Shown here piece after piece: positions 1 to 11,759 of a DNA stretch of 64,000 nucleotides. A model generated the notes under the pieces. That model was not told the DNA's origin, made no database searches, and saw only the letters and a program-made list of their open reading frames with translations. Origin of the DNA: Gonapodya prolifera JEL478. Lineage: Eukaryota; Monoblepharomycota; Monoblepharidomycetes; Monoblepharidales; Gonapodyaceae. Within the stretch, counting starts at the first letter, position 1. The number at the start of each line of letters is the position of its first letter. The stretch lies in NCBI GenBank assembly GCA_001574975.1, contig KQ965806.1:180180-244179 (forward strand). The letters run 5' to 3'. Position numbers and translations under genes: made by a program.

Positions 1-1000
1 ATGCATACAATCTTTTCTAAAACCATGGGGCAGGTGCATAATCTCGCTTCTCAATGAGATGTCAGGACAAGGAGCGGCCAAGAGATCGACGTGTTTTAAA
101 CATTTGGATGCCCTCCAGCTTCTTTAATGGCCACCATTCTTCTGAAAACCCTAGGTTGAATATTACGTAGATACTCCCTGTCAACGCCAAATCGAATCAT
201 TGTGACAATGCCTGCGCGAGATCCAGCCAGGAAAATGCGAGGGTTACATTTCAAAAGTGGCGAGTATGGGAGCTCCGGCGCCCCTGGGGTCTCCGGTGAA
301 TTAAGGCTGGATTGATGATACATTGTCCTTTTCTTTCAGCCTCGTAATGCGCAGAAGGGTGTGACATCGGTCAACCGCCACCATTAACGTCACCGTACTT
401 GGTCCGTTACCCGGTGAACAACTGGATGCAGGAGCCGAACGTCAAACTAAAAGCGCAGTCAAACCACCAGACTGCGCAAATGTGTTTTCGTCACAGAACA
501 GAAAACATCCTAAACAACTGCCGCTATTCGAGTTCTCGGCAATCAAATCACCGCCTCCACCGATCATTAGCGGCCCTCCAAAGGGAGAGCCACCTGCACT
601 GGGGACGGGCGAAACGAGCAAGAGCAGAGTGGGTGAAATTCCCGGTAGCGTGGTGTCTTATGAGTGTGTCCGAGCAGCCCCAATGCTCGCTGCTAGATCT
701 GGTGTGCAAGGCGGAGGGTGACGCAGCCCCCGAGTTGGCCATCTCTTGTCCAGTCGCGGCTCGAGTTGCCTCCAAAAAGTAAACAAGAGAATACATGAGC
801 GCAGAATGGAGTGGTTGTACTTGGCAGGTTGGACGTGTGAAGTGGGACCACAAGCAACCTTTCGGTGTCACCTGTCACCACGAAGGCAAAGTGCGGACCA
901 TGATCTGGACGGCGCCAAGTCTGCACGGGCAGCGCGGCGCGTCAAAATTTGTAGTGTGCGTACGTGGGGCCTGGAATTATAACGGCGGGTTTGGCTACTA
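1..1000. other. no recognisable gene
   Basis: I see no conserved domain, tRNA-like fold or repeat here. Several short overlapping open frames exist on both strands but none has a recognisable motif, and their amino-acid composition is that of random GC-rich sequence. Confidence 0.5.
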
Positions 1001-1134
1001 GCCGAGACTTCTTAAAATTTTCGCTTTATATTATGTATATAGGGGCTTACTTTCTCTCGAATGGCAGTAGGGACAAGCCTTAAAATAAAACTCATATTAC
1101 GAGGTATCTCAAAGGTTAGAGCTGAGTCGAACTC

Positions 1135-1929
1135 ACTCATGAGCGTCCGTCCGAAACCGCTGGATTCACCCACGGCACAAACAACAGAACGTCCAGTCCC
1201 TTCAACAACCTTCGATCCTGAAAGAATGAATGGATCCCCTGGTGCCTGCCACGGTGCCGACGTTCCCGTCTCCTCCATGTTGTGACCTGGCCGATGATCC
1301 CACGCGGGTCCCTTCGGTACAGTCTTCCTGACGGCCTCTGCTTCTCCCGTGGTCGCACTTTCGTCACACCGCACATTGGACCCGCTCACGAGCACGCCGT
1401 CCGCCGCAGGTACGTCCCACGGTTCGATGACAACAACCAAGAGCACGGACTTCAACGCTAGAAATTTGTCATGAGCTCTCGCCCACATAACTGCCCACAG
1501 AGACTTTGGTCTCGCCTGCGGAATTGCGTTCGACCCAAAAACGCGACTTCGCAGCGCCCGTTTGTCGGCGGTCCTTACCCCTTCATCACGCCGACGAGCG
1601 TCCCCTCCCGCAGCGACGGGTCGAGCGGTGGGTGCGGTGGATTCCCTCGTCTCCGCAAGGGGCGAAGCGGATGATCCTTGCCAACCAACGCCCCTGCCAA
1701 GATCCACATCAACAGAGGCGCACAGCCCATCAACGCCGCCCAACGACGCGAGCTGCTGAGACGCCTTTGGGTCGAACAACAGCTCCAGAGTTTGCTGAGT
1801 CAAAGCGAATGATGTCCCGTTCCCGGTAGGCTTCCACCAGCGACGATGCGGCCGAGAGCGCGAGCAAGGCCCGCGAAGCGTCGGTGTCCGCCATCGGAGG
1901 CGTGGAGCGTGTGGAGAGTGGCAGTCCAA
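1135..1929 (-). pseudogene. Calcium P-type ATPase (PMC1/PMCA type), N-terminal part, displaced
   Basis: The minus-strand frame reads like the N-terminal third of a fungal vacuolar/plasma-membrane Ca2+-ATPase. In order it shows a segment like 'LELLFDPK...LGGVDGL' (N-terminal regulatory region), 'VFGSNAIPQ..KSLW' and 'DKFLAL' (start of the cation-ATPase N domain), then 'ADGVLVSG.NV.CDESATTGE' and 'DPFILSGSKV.EG.GRSVV' of the actuator domain, ending at 'GRTLMS' near 1135. About 100 residues that should hold the first two membrane helices and the start of the actuator are missing between 'DKFLAL' and 'EPWDVPAADG'. Family members continue directly into 'TPLQ...IAKLGG', and exactly that continuation is found on the opposite strand from about 4105. 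It therefore looks like one half of a broken gene. A working short product is unlikely. Confidence 0.75.
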
Positions 1930-2047
1930 GGGAACAGTGAATAAACAGCAAAGCCGGTGGATAATCTATATGTGGAAGGAGAGGGCATCTCTCACTCCCG
2001 TATCTGGCAACACTCCCGTCGATTTGGGGGGCATGCGTTTTCCACAA

Positions 2048-2690
2048 CCCGATGCATCCCGGCGGTGGATATCATCGGCCTCCTTATGTATACCACATGC
2101 TCCACTATGAATTACGGAATTCATTCAGGGTTTTAAGGTGGCAGCATCTTCGAAGGTCATTGCACGCCATTGGTGATTGGTGGAGATGAGTTCTCTTCCG
2201 GACGAACTCAAATGATGTGTCTTTCGAGGGCAAATGCAGGACAAAGGCGCAAAACCTCGACGAGCTGCTTCCCGTATCCTTCGTTAGCTACGGATTTCAT
2301 GGTGGATCCAATCTTTGAAATTTCACGACAATGCTTTTCTTTGTTGGGCACGGCGTCGGTCGGATGACAATTATGAAGTTCAGACAGTAACGCTCATGAG
2401 ACGTTAGATATGGCACAGGGTGAGTCGCACGGCTCACGAAAAACGGCTCTTCAATAGATTCTTCTTTGCAAGTCAGGTGGGAAGGAGTCGTTGAATTTTG
2501 CACGTTTCATCGACCTCTCCTTCAACGTACGAACTGAAGGGCCACGCGCACCAGCTCTGAGTACAGACGAAAACGACTTCAGCACGACACATAATCTGTT
2601 TGTTCCAATATTCCCACTGGTGTTCTGGCATCTATGTGACACACGGTGCATCAGGTGACAGTGACCAAAGTCCAAACATTAAACTCCATT
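2048..2690. other. intergenic, nothing recognised
   Basis: This stretch lies between the displaced ATPase N-terminal half and the F-box gene. I see no conserved coding signal or structured RNA. Confidence 0.4.
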
Positions 2691-2699
2691 TTCACATCT

Positions 2700-3949
2700 C
2701 CCCTTCATTTTCCATTATTATTCCTTTCCTTTTCAATTCAATCCGATTTCCTACCTCTCGCCACTCACGCTTTCCCTCATCGACGCTCCCGCAACCCGTC
2801 GCCCACACCTCCTCACCCTCCCCATCGAAGTTCTGCACACCATCTTCTCCCACCTGGCGATGGACACGCTGGCAAACATATGTCTTACCTGCCGGGCCAC
2901 CGGCCGAATTGTCGCAACGATCCCGTCACGGTCTCGATACGACATTCGGCTGGAGAAGGAGCCATACACTTACGCGTAAGGCTCGTCGGAGGAGTTGGGA
3001 TCGGGGATAAAACGGTCCATGACCATGCTGCAGCGGTGGATGTACAGCGGCAACGCTCAAGCGCTTGCATCGGGCGTGGTGTCGGTGGCACTCCATCGTG
3101 AACACACGCCCATCGACGTGACCATTATCGTCCGCATTCTGGACACCGTTCACCTCGCTCCAGGAAGCGTCTTTTGTCGGGTGCCTGGAGTCCGGACGAG
3201 TCTTTGTCGCATTAGCAGCCCAGGATGGACGTTTTTGCAATGGACGTCGCGAAGCTTGAAGCGGTTAGACCTTTCGGACAGCCAAGGGACGACGAAGCGA
3301 CTTGCGAAAAGACCTCTTCATTCTGGGGATGCTCTTGGACGCCGAGCCTCGGATGGAACCTTCCAGGTCTTGACCCTCTCCTCACCTTTGAGTCAAGTTT
3401 CGTGATCTTCTTCAAACAGCGCCGTCACGCTTAGCCGCGGCTTACCCCAACCTGTGCATATCGTGTCATAATCAGCCGGCACATTCATGAAGTCGAGACA
3501 GACGCTGCATATATTGCAGTGAGCCGGACTTGTGTAAACGGTGCCTATCTTACATTTACATCGGACTGTACGAACGTGCGACCGGCGGATTCCACTGTAG
3601 CAACCAGTGTGGTGTGCTTGTAAAACTCTGTGACACGTGTCGCGCAAGTTTTGGGTGGAAGTACTGCGTGTGGCAAGGTAGCAGTACCATGGCGCAGTGG
3701 CTTCCACAGCCGTATTGTGAAACTGATTCATGCCCCAACTGCCAGGCGACCTGCGCCGGCTGTGGGGGCGATTTTGCGTTGTGCAGGCGCCACAGCACCC
3801 CGTGCAAGTGCGAAGATGTGTGTCCGGACTGCTATGAGAATGCGAGGTGTGAAGTATGTAACACGCCTCTATCCATCGAGCCGGAGGCAGGTGGCCGCCG
3901 GGACAGAGTGGACTCGGGCGGCTCGGCCTGTGCTAGGGGAGATACATGA
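2700..3949 (+). CDS. F-box protein with C-terminal Cys-rich region (possibly decayed)
   Basis: From about 2815 one frame reads 'LPIEVLHTIFSHL...LANICLTCRATGRI', a clear F-box (the Skp1-binding module of SCF ubiquitin ligases). No in-frame ATG precedes it, so an upstream exon is needed or the start is lost. After a likely intron at 2978 (GTAAGG) the middle part has 'SLKRLDLSD', weakly like a leucine-rich repeat. From about 3400 a Cys-rich region follows: 'NLCISCHNQPAH', then 'RCIYCSEPDLCKRC' and a series of CxxC pairs up to about 3870, which could form zinc-binding folds. An in-frame TGA at 3488-3490 separates the first Cys pair from the rest although the frame otherwise continues. The gene lies inside the segment that appears inverted relative to the ATPase halves. 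Function beyond a probable substrate-adaptor role is unknown. It may be a pseudogene. Confidence 0.45.
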
Positions 3950-4079
3950 GAACGGAAGATGAAGGGACGTGAGTTACCCGCACATTGTTATCGCCAACTT
4001 TATCGTCCGCATTATGTAACGATTAACGACTCCTCGTTCCAAAATCCACAAGACCGCTGCAAGCCAAACTTCACGAGTA

Positions 4080-5960
4080 TGTACCCGCCTTCTTTCCCTG
4101 CATCTGTTATGTCGACCCACACTCCCCTTCAAAACCCAAGCCCTGCCGACTACATCGCCAAACTCGGCGGCATCGCAGCCTTTGTCATTCTCATTGTACT
4201 GCTAGCAAAGTACATCATCGTGACGACTGTGACTAATGAATTCGGACCGGACTGCGACACACATGCTGTGAGTCTGTTCTTTTCGGTGACAAATTGCCGA
4301 TGTACAACGTTGCTTGACGGAACGACGACGCAATCACTAGTGCCCGAGCGAGGCCCTGTCCCGCTTTGCCAAGATGCTTGTCACATCTGTCGCGATCATT
4401 GTTGTTGCTATTCCCGAGGGAATACCCCTCGCCGTCTCGCTTGCTCTCATGTATGGAACAATCCGCATGTGAGCGTTGTAGTGGTCCCGTCCCCGGCTCG
4501 AACCTTGACAAATCCCTTGTCTCCAGCATCAAGACAGCAACTTCGTCCGTGTCCTCGCGTCGTGCGAGACTATGGGCGGCGCAACGACACCGTGCAGTGA
4601 CAAGACAGGAACACTCACCGAGAACCGGATGACGGTCGTCACGGGCGCGTTGGTGCCGAAACTCCATTTGGAAAGTGCGGAAAGTGGAGTGAACGCCCCG
4701 GTGGAACAAACCTTGCCGTCATATTTGGCGACGTTGCAGAAAAGAGTGCAGGCAGACAGAAGCTGGCGCGCATCCTTGGCGAAGTCGAAAACGAGGGTTG
4801 GAGCACGAAGAGCCTTGGAGAGAAAAGAACAAGAGAGCAAGATGGGAGTTGACGAAGAGCTCGCGAGCGGGAAGTCGGAGAGTGTCACAGAGGAGGAAGT
4901 GGCTGGATCTGAAGAAATGTTCGAGGAAGTACAAAAGGGTCAGGCTCTTCTCACTGTCGTGGGGATTCAAGACCCCGTGCGCAAAGGGTGTACTGGAAGC
5001 AGTCGAGATGTGCAAGGGGGCGGGAGTCGATGTTCGAATGGTGGGTTGCCCTCCAATATCGAAGCCCTCAGTCTCCGTTCTCATCCAACGTTCGCCAAAT
5101 CAGGTCACAGGCGACCACCTTCTCACCGCTCAAGCAATTGCGCGCGAATGTGGAATCCTTACCCCCGATGGCGTTGTTATGGAAGGCCCTCGGTTCCGAC
5201 AGCTTTCTCCTTCGGAGATGCGAGAGATACTGCCCAAGCTCCAAGTATTGGCATGATCAAGTCCCATTGATAAGCTACTTTTGGTAAAGACGCTGAAGGA
5301 GATGGGCGAAACGGCCGCTGTGACCGGCGATGGTAAGTGTGGAATGGTGCGCCAAAACACAGATGCTTTTGTTGACATAACATAGTCCGCTCTGCTTTCA
5401 TCCATTGGAACCAATGACGGGCCCGCTCTCAAAGCTGCCGACGTGAGCTTCAGTGACTCATAAAGAAATCGTTTTACTTCACGCCGGAAAGTTGAAGATC
5501 TTGCGGTCGACGGGTATGGGAATTTCTGGAACCGAGGTCGCTAAGGAAGCCTCGGCAATCGTTTTAATGGACGGCAGTGAGTCTTGTGGAGATTCTATCT
5601 TTTCACGATGGTGTATTCCAAAGCTGATGTCCTTTTTTGTGTACTTTTCATTACAATTAGACTTCGCGTCTATCGTGAAAGCCATCATGGTGGGTCAACT
5701 GTAACTTGGCGACACTGAACGACAGTACTAACTCCATTTTGCAGTGGGGTCGATCAATCAATGCGGCAGTTAAAAAATTCCTCCAGTTCCAGGTCACCGT
5801 TAACATCACCGCGGTGGCCATTTCTTTCGTATCGGGAGTCGTCGATCGGAGAAATGTCGTTTCGGGAACCCCATTGGCTCGCACAAATGTTCGGATGACC
5901 TCGTGTGGAATGCCACGCTCTTTGAGTCATCGCTCGCATTGAGCACCCGAATCTCCTCCA
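4080..5960 (+). pseudogene. Calcium P-type ATPase (PMC1/PMCA type), catalytic part, damaged
   Basis: Starting near 4105 with 'THTPLQNPS' and 'IAKLGGIAAFVILIVLL' (third membrane helix), the plus strand carries helix 4 with the ion-site motif 'VAIPEGIPLAVSLALMYGT' (about 4400-4450), the phosphorylation motif '[13 protein letters not shown]' (about 4592-4630), nucleotide-domain remnants, '[19 protein letters not shown]', the hinge 'TGDG..NDGPALKAADV' (about 5325-5445) and 'SGTEVAKEASAIVLMD', ending after 'WGRSINAAVKKFLQFQVTVNI'. Several introns splice cleanly (5041-5105; GTAAGT at about 5333; before 5660). Damage: a one-base frameshift near 4990, a TGA at 5254-5256 where the frame otherwise continues, a phase problem at the intron after helix 4, NDG for the usual NDA, and loss of the last membrane helices after about 5850. 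The N-terminal half lies on the other strand at 1135-1929. Confidence 0.8.
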
Positions 5961-6395
5961 AAGAATGTAATTGCTTTTGTCGGCGTGCCAAAGTGGACCA
6001 GCATTCGCGACATTTTGATACCTTGCCCCCAACCTGGAAGGAGGAACCATGCGCCCTGAAGACGCCCCCCGGAGTCCACTGCGCATATCTGAGTGTCGTC
6101 TCAGCGAGCGGGTTTCCAGTAAATGTCACAACGTGGTTGCTCGATTGCATGGTTCCTGCCCACTGAGACACCATGTAAAAAAGAGAATCAAATTGGCCTA
6201 CCCGACAACTAAGGGGGTAATGGTCAAATTCATATGTATATGCTTTGGGAGTCACCTTGGTACGTAGTGAATAAGTTCCAAATAGGGTAATTGCATATAT
6301 ACAAGATAGTGGCAGCTCTACAATCTAGGAACCAGGAGCCATTACCGCTGCTGAAGACTCCTGGGGGACCTGGATCCACCTTGACCCAGATCCCT
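5961..6395. other. intergenic, nothing recognised
   Basis: This short stretch lies between the broken end of the ATPase relic and the 3' end of the mitochondrial RNA polymerase gene. No trace of the missing ATPase C-terminus was recognised. Confidence 0.4.
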
Positions 6396-9300
6396 TCAGT
6401 GGAAAAAGTAGGGGCTGCCCATAACAGCACGAACGTCAAAGTCACCTCGTTTCGGGAGTTCGGGAAATAAGCGCTTGATGTCCACCCAAACTAGAACCGC
6501 TCTCGCTCCGACCTTGTAGCTATTAAGATTTCGCTTTGACATCGCACGTCCCTTCTTGCCATACCGACTCTTCACTTCAATGATCGCGTCCAAATCGCCA
6601 TCGTCAGCAAGCATCCTAGAGGCGGTGGCTACTTCACGCTCCGCTTCCAATTTGAGCACCTTCTCCCACATCACCTTCGATGTTTTAAGAGGCAAAGTCA
6701 CGCGGACGGGGAGCTTGTTGTTTCCAAACCTCTCCAACAATTCGTCTCGCAGCTTTTCCATGATGCCCTTGCCATCCGGCCCGGTACTGTGTAGCCTCAC
6801 GAACTCCTCCCTTAGAACTCTTCCAAGTTCGTCTACATCGGCCGCATGTGTCCAAAACGAGTCATGTACAGCCGCAAAGGTCAGTCCAAGTGCCTTCATG
6901 TGCAACGCCGTAAGCATCATGTGCGTCGCGTCCAGACTGTGTATGAAATTGGGGGGGAATGCGCTCGACTGCTTTTGATGGTTTGTTGAACCCTGTAATG
7001 TGGGATCTGCAATAACGAGTCTTTGGTAACGTGTCGTAATCGAGCGCATGGGAAATTTACGGTACGGTTGCACGACAGGGAGGCCAAGCGGGGTTGTCCA
7101 AACCAACATCGTGTTTCGTTGAATAGCCGGTGGCAATTCAAAACCTCGTTTCTTCACGCCGGACTTGGTCTTCTTCGTCTTGGCCTCTTTCGTGCTGGAT
7201 TCCTTCACTGCTGAATCCGTAACAGAAGAGGAGACATCATCCTGTCCAGTGATATCGTGATCCAACAATCCGTCATGTAAATTGTCACGAGATGCCTCTT
7301 GTCCAACAAGCTTTCCTTCAAAAGCATCAGTTTTGGCATCGTTTTCGTCATCTTCGGTCATCCTCAAGTCTTCCAGCTCTGTCGTCTCCACCCCGTTCCC
7401 CTCAATCTTGCCACCCTTCACGATGCCCATCTCCTCCAAGACATCTGTGATGATCAATCCCCTTGGATCGATGTGTCTCGAGTCAGCACTGGAACACACA
7501 ATACGAGCAATGTCGTTTAACCATTGTTGAATCGCCCTTGCGCCGCTGAACATCTCCGCCACCGCGCGGTTTGTCAAGATAGCGAGATAACTTGCACACT
7601 GGAATATTTGTCTATCGTCCATGACGTGCTCTCCGGCAGTTCTTGATTCGACTAAACGGGCTGAAATCTGCTCCCGCGCCCCAATGAATGTCACTCCATA
7701 GCTTTGTGTCATCACAGTTTGCTTCACAAGTGCCCGCGTCACTTTTCCCTGAGCCATCCGAGCGATTGCGTTCCCCGCGGAGGCGTCCTCGTCCACGATT
7801 CTTCCAACGATCTTGGCAACACCGGTATAAACATCACCTGGTTTCTCCCGAGGCACCAAGTTCACCTCGAAAGCACCTTCTGAATCACCTCCCAAGGCAG
7901 CGTAATGCTGCATTCCATTGCAGGAGCCATCCATCTGTACTGGCAAACCGCTTTCATACTTTTCAGGACCTTCAGGGTGTTCCATCGCCCTTGCGACTTC
8001 ATGACAAACCGCCAAGCACTGGTATGGCGAGTCCGCCTTTTTCCACCATCCATTCCCACCCAATGGATTTCTCGCAGAGTCTAGCACGTCGTTTATCCTT
8101 TCCTCTGTCCACTTGACACGATCCTCGAACGACGCCTTATCGAACCCATATGTGTTTGCAAGGTGCACTTTGAGCCAAAACCAGCCACGATCTCCGAGTG
8201 GTTTACGCAGATCGAACCGCAACAAACTCCGACTCAAATCGTTTCCGATATGGTTCAGATTCGGTGGGACGGGGTACGCACGCCCACGGAAGTCGATGTG
8301 GTGGGGGAACCAGATCGGCCTCCCTGCCATTGCTGCCGCCAAGACCACTTTGAGTCCAGCGTCACATCGCCTTGAGTACCGCTCACGCTCATCCTTGAGC
8401 CATTTGGCCCTTGCGGCTGCAATTATCGCAAAATCCCTGATCTCCTCCCGCCCAACTTCGCCCTTGGCCCGACGTTCCTTCCATGCCTTCATACCATTGG
8501 AAAGTGCAGGTGGCGGGATGCGTCGCTCCATGGCAGCCGGTGGCATATCCCCCAAGGAGACTCCGGAATTCCACAGCTCAATCACGGTAGGGAGTACGAC
8601 GTCGTTGACGCGCCACGGGATCGAACCCAGNNNNNNNNNNNNNNNNNNNNNNNNNNNNNNNNNNNNNNNNNNNNNNNNNNNNNNNNNNNNNNNNNNNNNN
8701 NNNNNNNNNNNNNNNNNNNNNNNNNNNNNNNNNNNNNNNNNNNNNNNNNNNNNNNNNNNNNNNNNNNNNNNNNNNNNNTTGACGCGCCACGGGATCGAAC
8801 CCAGATACGACAGGGCGGAGAAAAGGTGCGTCAGGTGTTGCCGTGAGTCGGCGGCCCGAAGGTACGCTAGCTGAGACGGAGCCGTTGGAGTAAAGTGCAT
8901 GATTCGAGCTGGGCGAGTGAAAGGGAGGTGTTGATTGGAAGGAAGAGGAGGGCGAGGTGGAGTCAAAAATTTGACGTCGTCGGGTATCACTACGTGTGGC
9001 GGGATAATACTCACCACCTCTACCGTAATACGGTCCCGACCTCTCGCCTACACCCGCCCAGTTCCTGGGCTGGCAAATCATTGGCAAGTAACTCGCTTCC
9101 ATCCCAGCCAAGGAAGCATTGGCCCATTCCCTGACCTCTTCCCTGGCTTCCACAACGCCAATAAGCCGGCTCTGAATGAGAGAGTCGCCACGGTTGTCGA
9201 GAACCTTCTTATAGGAAAATGCAAATGGTTGGATAGTGGAGTCTTTTGATGGGAGTCGTGCAGTGGCAATGAGCGCGTCCAGAAGGAACGCACCGACGCG

Positions 9301-11759
9301 GGCAGCGAGTGGCAGGGTCCAGTTCGGAAGCCATGGCATGTCAAACTTTTCCCCTGCGACCGCAGCCTGAGCAGTGGAGGGCAGCTGGATCAATATTTCC
9401 CACGGTGAAAGGGGAGGAGATCAAACCTACATGTGCCTTGCTGAGCAACCCCTCCACCCTCTCCCACATTCCTCCCGAAATTGCTTTCTTCATAATGACT
9501 TCGGACGGTACACCATTACTTGCGGTGTCTGGTTCACCGTCAGGTTCTGCATCGCTTTGGCGAAGCTTCTTAAGCTTCGCCTGCAATCGGGCATTCTCGT
9601 ACGTATCGACACACTTCGCAAGGTACTCGCGATGCACCGACCGACCGATCACTCCCGCAAGATGGTTGTATGGCGCTGAGAGGGGTGCGTTGTCCGAGGA
9701 AGACGCCGGAGCGTCTGCATTCTCGGCCGACAAATCCTGGATGCCGGATATGGGTACGGTCGTGGCGGGAGACGTGAGGACCTTGAAGATCCCAGCAATG
9801 TCAGGGCGAGTTCAGGAAATACCGAGCCGACATATTGATTCACCTTGAGAGTTTCGATAATGGCCACGTACGCGGCCTCTTCCGCTCCGATCCACTTCAC
9901 TAATGCGCGCACTTCATCGTCGTGTGGCATATCCTGCATCTGCACATCCGCGTCGTCGTTCATTTCGGCGGACACATTCTCCGCCCTTCCCTCCTGGCTT
10001 AGCTTTTCGTCCCCACGAATCCACTCAGCGATGCCGTGGGACCATTCCCACCCGGCCCATTTTCCTTTTCCAGAGGAAGCGACTCTCCCCCCTGGATGGT
10101 GCAGTGCGATGCGCTGGGATCGGGCCAGGGACGAGATCTGTGAGAGACGGTCCAGCACGAATTGTAGAGACATTGAGTTGAGTGGCTCGTTGGGAGAGGT
10201 GTTCGGCTGTTGAGAAGACGGTGGGGTGGAAATGTAAGATGTGGCGGTGGATGTAGTGGTAGGGGTAGCGCTAGTGGTGTCGTTGGAGTTCGGAGTGGAT
10301 GTGTCTGCTGTCCGAGGAAGCAACCGCATTACACGATGGAGCATTGTCAATGTCGGGGACTGCAAAGTGTAGAGTATTCTGTCAGAGACCGAAACATAAA
10401 GAAGAAAAATACTACATTAACAGATGCAAGACGAGTGCCTTACGCTCATCTTCGAGTCCTGCTTGGAAGCCATGCACCACAATTCTAGATTTGGTGATTG
10501 ATACTCCGTGAACTCACCGTGGCCGATCCGATCTCCACTTTACTTAACCACGACTCGTCGTCGTTTGCTGGGCCAAAATCTTGCTCCGAATCTTTAAAGA
10601 GCATTTCAAGGGCCTTGTCCGGGTCCACTCGAGCAGTCTCGAACAGCTCGTGATAGTACGTTCTGGCCTCGTCGGGCACCGAAGGTGGGACTTGGAAGGG
10701 TAGGGCTCTGAAGGAGACACGCGGCGGGAGCGTATCTTCGTTAAAAGCAGCCAGGGAGGCGAGTGCGCGAGAGATGGCGTCGCGGCCGTCGGGGACTTCG
10801 GGTTGGACTGATTCTGTTGTGCTGGAAGATAAAGTTGTGTTGGACGAGGGTGGGGTGCGGGTTGTGAGGAAGGATGGCCCTTGGATCCAGGCGGCCTCGG
10901 CTTCAGCGAGTAGGGCGACTGCGCGGGGGTCGGTGTCCACAGCGCGTTTGACGTCCTCGGGGTTTGTTCTCCGGAGTCGAGCGAGGGTTTGTGACGCGAG
11001 GATGAAGGGGTGTTCCGAAGGGTTCGCAGGGGGAACCGCGTACGGGTCAGTGGCGTGTAGTAGGTGAGCGTGCATGAGTGCGAGTTGGTGTTGGAATATG
11101 GCCAGGGAAAGCGGTGCAATGGAGGACTGGGGTGAATTTACTGAGAATGATGCGGAAGGATGTGGGGGTGGGGAGAGGTCCGGGGAGGGGACAAGCTGAT
11201 CTTCTTGATGAAGGGGGAATGCGGTGTATTCATGCAAATCGTCCAAGATGATGGGGTTCCGGTTTCTCGAGATGGACCATAGCTGAGGCGGAATCGAGGC
11301 GGAATTTCCAAAGAGCTCCGATTCAATGAGATCGCCCAGGTCGTCATATGCGATGGACTGGGCTAATTGTGAGCGAGTCCGTGAGGGGTGTTGTGGTGGT
11401 GAACGAGGTGAGTCCATGAGTCTCGGTGCCTGCTCTTTCCGAGTACTCGTACTAAACGTTCGCAGTGGCATCGATTGGTTCAGCAGCAGTTGGCGTTGTT
11501 GCTGTGTGTTTTTCAGGGGCTTTCGAGTCGACGTGTCCACCGATCCACCTTGACCACCTGCGTTGCCGACACTCTCCATTGTCCAAAATTGTCTACATCC
11601 TCGTCTCGCTGCTGTACGCTTTTCTCTCACAGCTTTCTCGCCATCCTGCGATGTCTTCTCTCCACTGCCAGGGCAACCCGCACTCCCGAGTCCCCGAGAT
11701 GCTCCCACACTCCCCGCTCTCCTCGCCGCACGGACTCCCACTGCTACTCCTCGCTGCAT
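6396..11759 (-). CDS. RPO41: Mitochondrial DNA-directed RNA polymerase, nuclear encoded
   Basis: This single-subunit T7-like polymerase transcribes the mitochondrial genome. Coding segments join well as 11759-10518, 10359-9844, 9781-9404, 9366-9015 and 8908-6396; all introns are GT-AG and phase-consistent. The N-terminus is Arg/Ser rich with 'MPLRTFSTSTRK', like a mitochondrial presequence. The N-terminal domain has 'GRSVHREYLA' and 'LPMICQPRNW'. The catalytic part has 'DGSCNGMQHYAALGGD' (motif A aspartate), 'KQTVMTQSYG' (motif B), 'HSLDATHMM' and 'VHDSFWTHA' (motif C aspartate), then ends 'FDVRAVMGSPYFFH', close to the usual C-terminus. A run of N at 8631-8778 interrupts the assembly but not the frame. 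A roughly 100-residue acidic, Ser/Lys-rich insert precedes 'VWTTPLGLPVVQPY'. The start chosen is the most upstream Met of the open frame; a downstream Met is possible. Confidence 0.93.
8605..8804. repeat. 26-bp direct repeat flanking a 148-N gap
   Basis: The same 26 bases (beginning ttgacgcgcc, ending gaacccag) lie immediately before the N run (8605-8630) and immediately after it (8779-8804). Dropping the N block and one copy leaves an uninterrupted polymerase reading frame (LGSIPWRV followed by NDVVLP), so the gap is most likely an unmerged contig overlap. Confidence 0.85.

Follow-up and report, generated by a model that had tools for sequence, protein, structure and literature searches.

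A calcium-ATPase pseudogene in Gonapodya prolifera JEL478, very probably split by a 2.9-kb inversion, and its unbroken counterpart on a second contig

In the genome of Gonapodya prolifera JEL478 (assembly GCA_001574975.1), a 64,000-nucleotide stretch of contig KQ965806.1 (C76:180180-244179, in the following called the window) carries two halves of a calcium-ATPase gene on opposite strands, with an F-box/Cys-rich gene between them. This raises the question by which event the ATPase gene came apart, and where this event stands among the other damage to the same copy. A first-pass annotation had proposed that one inversion of about 3 kb split a single Ca2+-ATPase gene and carried the F-box gene in the flipped piece. 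In this study, we searched the genome (47.6 Mb, 207 contigs) with both ATPase halves and with the DNA between them. Beyond the window itself, each of these queries had its best match at the same single place on contig C99, and there the order is unbroken: F-box gene (minus strand), spacer, Ca2+-ATPase gene (plus), pfkB kinase gene (minus) and RPO41-like gene (minus). The proposal of one inversion was thereby borne out, and we are confident that the window holds a dead copy of a PMCA/PMC1-type Ca2+-ATPase gene, split by a two-break inversion of 2.9 kb, of which an unbroken copy is kept on C99. In a DNA comparison, C76 and C99 are collinear from C99 ~90.6 kb (C76 147.7 kb) to C99 172.3 kb, in blocks of 68-95% identity. 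Between 105.5 and 129 kb of C99, the flipped piece is the sole reversed match of more than 100 bp that lies in place; a reversed match of 66 bp (C99 111453-111518) is a local repeat.

The C99 gene served as reference for all further comparisons. Its exons 1-13 are continuous, have GT..AG borders and encode 914 residues without a stop, and C-terminal exons follow beyond. The protein scores 644 bits against TIGR01517 (PMCA-type Ca2+-ATPase; cut-off 507.05), contains the phosphorylation motif DKTGT and has a Cation_ATPase_C match in its C-terminal part. The first-pass annotation had taken the sequences GRTLMS and MSTHTPLQ, at the ends of the two halves, to be adjacent in relatives. The conserved motif actually reads LRTEDEETPLQAKLHDLADYIAKLG and is spread over exons 3-5, of which exon 3 is a micro-exon of 25 bp (C99 122062-122086). 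In the window, the corresponding pieces lie on the plus strand at 3947-3968 (micro-exon 3 without its first three bases), 4053-4076 (exon 4, RPLQAKLH-) and from 4141 onward (exon 5). A plus-strand half is therefore present as claimed, but it does not start at MSTHTPLQ, which at 4109-4132 (plus) falls within intron 4 of the C99 gene model. A frameshift suspected near THTPHQ in the C99 gene was likewise discarded, as this is intron sequence once exons 3-5 are recognised. Since a continuous gene does not arise by chance from two halves, the C99 order was taken as the older one, and on this comparison of sequences the C99 arrangement is treated here as ancestral.

The minus-strand half comprises the 5′ part of the gene with exons 1-2 at window 1137-1894 (ATG at 1894-1892), which carries a 35-bp deletion and a larger one. 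It ends at GRTLMS as originally described, with the LM codons at 1143-1138 and the end of exon 2 at 1137. Intron 2 (1079-1136, minus) begins with the donor GTGAGT at 1136-1131 and ends at the breakpoint, 1078 being the first base of exon 3. The break had been placed at or beside this possible intron border; it is not at the donor but ~58 bp beyond it, where the same intron reaches its acceptor. On the other side, the right breakpoint is just inside micro-exon 3. The inverted segment thus extends over window 1078-3946 (2,869 bp, minus strand relative to C99), equivalent to C99 118586-122062, which replaces the previous estimate of about 1130-4105. Expressed in C99 coordinates, the window reads up to 118585, then from 122062 back to 118586, and then from 122065 onward, with both junctions placed to within a few bases. 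Accordingly, window 1074-1921 is C99 120850-122066 reversed, and window 3947-5851 is C99 122065-124530 in direct orientation. Overlap between the halves had been named as the observation that would speak for two different gene copies; the comparison was run, and the halves abut with zero overlap in C99 coordinates. If the junctions are read as tightly as possible, the joins lack no more than two bases (C99 122063-122064).

As far as can be judged from the assembly, the inversion is real. Its right flank (window 3947-4765) is 82% identical to C99. The left flank just outside the segment (window 1036-1077, plus) matches C99 118545-118585 in direct orientation with 81% identity across 42 bp (E 9e-5 when 7.6 kb was searched), and window 1055-1078 agrees with C99 from 118563 in 22 of 24 bases, compared with 15-18 of 24 for the best matches of 12 control 24-mers on both strands. 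A reversed segment between collinear flanks, as expected for a simple two-break inversion, was therefore found, with strong support on the right and a short flank on the left (42 bp at 81% and a weak match of 101 bp). Neither break contains N, and no inverted repeats of at least 14 bp are present at the breaks, the listed repeats being located elsewhere; recombination between such repeats was thereby ruled out as the cause. Also, no direct or inverted repeats of at least 12 bp that could mark transposon ends at the left break were found in window -150 to 1200 (negative positions lie on C76 before the window).

The F-box/Cys-rich gene lies between the ATPase halves, as had been stated, and its identity is supported by Pfam matches (F-box-like, E 8e-7; F-box, E 5e-6). 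It is not wholly inside the flipped piece, however. The pseudogene occupies window 2767-3946 (plus) and lacks its 3′ end; the terminal 11 codons with the stop (CPYCHSRQSSP* in C99) were severed by the inversion, stayed outside the inverted segment and are found as CPYCHSR... at window 1040-1077 (minus). As the left break falls among the last F-box codons and the right break in the ATPase micro-exon, the inversion cut two genes, not one. The F-box copy in the window has further lesions. Its ATG is mutated to ACG, codons 71 and 244 are stops, and of seven indels with a length not divisible by three, most compensate each other in pairs. Its differences from C99 amount to 41/383, 52/380 and 87/379 at first, second and third codon positions, indicating weaker constraint. 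The F-box/Cys-rich family has further copies on C23 and C33 (L028-L033) with 66-73% DNA identity in six loci, five of them on C23, and shorter matches on C22, C69, C100 and C48.

The ATPase in the window is a pseudogene, with frameshifts, a stop and loss of essential parts. Its pieces are 87-90% (5′ half) and 82-93% (3′ half) identical to C99 DNA, and three larger deletions interrupt them. The first has 334 bp (~C99 121371-121698), its junction at window 1432-1437 (minus) having six shared bases (GTTGTT), and takes the last part of intron 1 along with the sequence that codes for the first two membrane segments. The second has 567 bp (C99 122869-123435; junction at window 4765-4768, plus; no shared and two extra bases) and takes much of the nucleotide-binding domain, the domains being assigned by homology in both cases. 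The third has 1,816 bp (~C99 124531-126343; junction at window 5849-5851, plus; three shared bases, GAG) and takes the ATPase C-terminal region together with the greater part of the pfkB kinase gene. The smaller exon lesions comprise the 35-bp deletion, three 1-bp deletions, one 1-bp insertion and a stop at codon 837; in addition, two in-frame insertions of 6 and 9 bp are present. Two gaps were left out of this count, one of a single base at window 3947 (the breakpoint) and one of 13 bases at window 5752, which reflects a scar in the C99 assembly (an N and a 13-base duplication within an ATPase exon at C99 124430). The motif DKTGT is still present in the window copy (4599-4613). The 5′ fragment alone reaches 62.9 bits against TIGR01517, below the cut-off, and the window copy lacks a complete membrane part and nucleotide-binding domain.

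To follow the history of this copy, its coding sequence was compared with C99 by codon position in four blocks, namely A1 (window 1432-1921), A2 (1079-1437), B (3947-4767, plus, exons 3-7 in part, ~82% identical to C99) and C (4768-5851, plus, 93% identical). A2 and B together differ at 23/556 first and second positions and 62/278 third positions (P 3e-15), with similar third-position values for A2 (21/100) and B (41/178). For A1, the counts are 27/287 and 30/143. Block C differs at 25/489 first and second and 14/244 third positions (P 0.73), a similar divergence at every codon position and no codon bias, and the RPO41-like gene at 35/1490 and 69/745. For comparison, the window contains 27 open reading frames of at least 200 amino acids, 22 of which have a C99 match; in 13 of these the ratio of first/second to third-position divergence is below 0.5, and the 12 constrained frames outside the ATPase have third-position divergences of 0.195-0.405. 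The remaining frames of this set include wrong reading frames. The codon pattern indicates that the ATPase up to ~4.6 kb was under purifying selection before the gene died.

Silent divergence falls within window 4532-4802 (best position 4637), an interval that also holds the 567-bp deletion junction at 4765. The following low-divergence tract comprises the 3′ part of the ATPase and the RPO41-like gene and may extend from 4532 to ~11.5 kb. Window 8631-11013 is not comparable because C99 reads N there, and the bins at 18.25-18.75 kb are again 94-96% identical to C99; with this gap and these later bins, one clean tract of low divergence is not proved. Judging from the sequences, the tract probably results from exchange or conversion between the sister copies.

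Codons with an amino-acid change are similarly frequent along the gene (A2 6/100, B 17/175, C 23/242), and the similarity between B and C makes gene death and exchange look similar in age. In total, 71 codons differ in the encoded amino acid, and paralogue data were available for 68 of them. The paralogues side with C99 in 44 cases (one of which is the window stop), with the window in five, with both in three and with neither in 16. With 44 outgroup-decided changes on the window copy against five on C99, the window copy is the relaxed one, and it had stayed under selection during much of the time since the two copies separated. Selected positions changed by ~4-5% since death, compared with a third-position divergence of ~22% in the 5′ part.

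These observations are best explained by the following course of events. Two breaks, one of them one base inside ATPase micro-exon 3 and the other among the final codons of the oppositely oriented F-box/Cys-rich gene, released 2.9 kb that was put back flipped. The ends would have been rejoined with almost no loss (2 bp), as non-homologous end joining leaves, the repair route itself being suggested by these joins. Thereby, the ATPase gene came apart into two halves of opposite orientation, and the tail of the F-box gene was lost. The same copy also acquired the three larger deletions and the small frameshifts, and conversion or recombination between the copies would have set the low-divergence tract over the ATPase 3′ part and the RPO41-like gene. 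The unbroken ATPase on C99 probably made the loss tolerable.

The position of the inversion in this sequence of events is less certain. The first-pass annotation had put the inversion first and the other mutations later, and this order was not established by our data. With a likelihood somewhat short of even, the ATPase had died beforehand, for instance through the 567-bp deletion or the exchange at ~4.6-4.8 kb, and the inversion fell later into neutral sequence. This would fit the location of the 567-bp deletion within the interval in which divergence drops, the similar frequency of changed codons on either side of it, and its effect, since by itself it takes much of the nucleotide-binding domain. 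Against this order, nothing dates the inversion as younger, and the F-box gene clipped by the inversion is dead as well and under weaker constraint, which is consistent with a shared cause for both genes but no proof of it.

The accumulation of damage on one copy within ~18 kb, comprising three deletions, the inversion, the divergence switch and a displaced inverted piece described below, could also suggest one multi-break event, such as shattering or template switching between the sister regions, as the common origin of inversion, deletions and low-divergence tract. The numbers of shared bases at the deletion ends (6, 0 and 3) would be in line with it. We regard a single event of this kind as rather improbable, as ordinary accumulation in a dead gene gives the same picture, a common age is not demonstrable, and the displaced piece could be older than all the rest.

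Some observations do weigh against a simple two-break inversion. The alignment is poor at window 3940-3946, so that the right junction may include a few filler bases. To the left of the break, matches to C99 comprise only window 1036-1077 and window -48 to 48 (69%, the weak 101-bp match), and for the ~1 kb between them (window 48-1036), directly beside the left breakpoint, no counterpart was found in the genome at the sensitivity used. About 5.8 kb of C99 is absent at the corresponding place of C76. Furthermore, the homologue of C99 117857-118365, which flanks the inversion, is found inverted at C76 168090-168938, that is, at window -12089 to -11241 and 12 kb left of the expected place. With this displaced piece, the inversion is not the sole rearrangement nearby. 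As the inversion is known from the assembly, a local assembly inversion with the segment placed backwards in C76 is formally possible, and assembly scars do occur at C99 124430 and window 8631-8778. We consider such an artefact very unlikely. A backwards contig piece usually needs flanking inverted repeats or gaps, and neither N nor inverted repeats of the length given above are present at the breaks; moreover, the window copy is independently a pseudogene and carries most of the outgroup-decided amino-acid changes. That two different gene fragments came to lie head to head by duplication, as other related ATPase pairs in the genome (C25/C18, C163/C164 and, by position, C100/C31) might suggest, is barely credible for halves that abut within a few bases without overlap, have one and the same best match, are alike in third-position divergence, and are accompanied by an F-box gene and part of the spacer flipped along with the 5′ half. 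Chance resemblance of the two halves was ruled out by the genome searches and the comparison of C76 with C99.

Beyond the ATPase 3′ part, only the 5′ part of the pfkB-family kinase gene is kept in the window (5849-6170, minus), and a frame of 172 amino acids at 5806-6324 has no Pfam match. On C99, the kinase gene is an open frame of 328 amino acids (L012:3729-4715, minus; PF00294). The RPO41-like gene for a mitochondrial-type RNA polymerase (window 6396-9047, minus) is open to the C-terminus in the window and includes an N run at 8631-8778. The assembly scar at this place covers 8631-8804, with 26 bases after the N run that repeat the sequence before the gap. The RPO41-like gene on C99 has an extra base in an A-run at ~127229 (L012 ~5229; sister of window ~6670), followed soon by a stop, and this frameshift could be a sequencing error or a reciprocal gene loss.

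The nature of the duplicate regions was assessed by means of housekeeping genes. Paired loci were found for none of three RPB2-type, one of nine CCT/HSP60 and two of 12 proteasome loci, a total of ~3/24; the proteasome count would be 3/13 if small minus-strand matches beside C58/C35 represent a further gene. Pairing was judged by contig and score pattern, and the locus counts are lower bounds. A whole-genome duplication is unsupported, as conserved housekeeping genes are mostly single. The related ATPases, however, occur in four pairs, which counts against this mostly single picture. Further duplicate pairs are C25/C18 (89% DNA identity) and C163/C164 (84-87%), and C58/C35, C39/C184 and C100/C31 were judged from paired matches only. 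As only part of the genome appears to be duplicated, neither a whole-genome duplication nor hybridity is shown, and the sister regions may be uncollapsed alleles, hybrid remnants or segmental duplicates. Tentatively, and with low probability, C76 and C99 might be long-separated sister chromosomes, such as old hybrid or long-asexual alleles, with complementary decay and rare exchange that set the low-divergence tract, by which the organism would be locked into both copies. In that case, the ATPase, F-box and pfkB kinase genes would be the losses of C76, and RPO41, through its frameshift, possibly that of C99. Independent of this, C39 328701-329213 and C99 113508-114017 share ~510 bp with 98% identity, exceeding that of the sister regions, possibly as a recent mobile copy.

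PMCA-type (P-type IIB) Ca2+-ATPases, covered by TIGR01517, have yeast PMC1 as a fungal example. The C99 gene resembles these proteins in passing the family cut-off and in its Cation_ATPase_C end, whereas the window copy is split and incomplete, as its three deletions have taken two membrane segments (the first and second), a large part of the nucleotide-binding domain and the C-terminal region. Disruption or death of a gene at an inversion breakpoint is a known kind of mutation, and the present case shares with it the two breaks, the reversed segment and a gene cut at each end. It differs from the usual cases in that the same assembly also contains the unbroken order, which makes both junctions readable with no need for a second species. 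Such events are thus already known, and the value of this one lies in the unbroken sister copy and the divergence mosaic. The two copies carry a built-in clock, by which the loss of the calcium pump can be roughly placed within their separation, and the region is therefore a good test case for gene loss and sequence exchange in diverged duplicate segments. The loss and conversion of homeologs in hybrid or polyploid genomes (PMC9157103, PMC8406199, PMC4864293) differ from the present case in that only ~3/24 housekeeping loci are duplicated in G. prolifera, and agree with it in the diverged duplicates, the loss of one gene copy and the tract of lower divergence.

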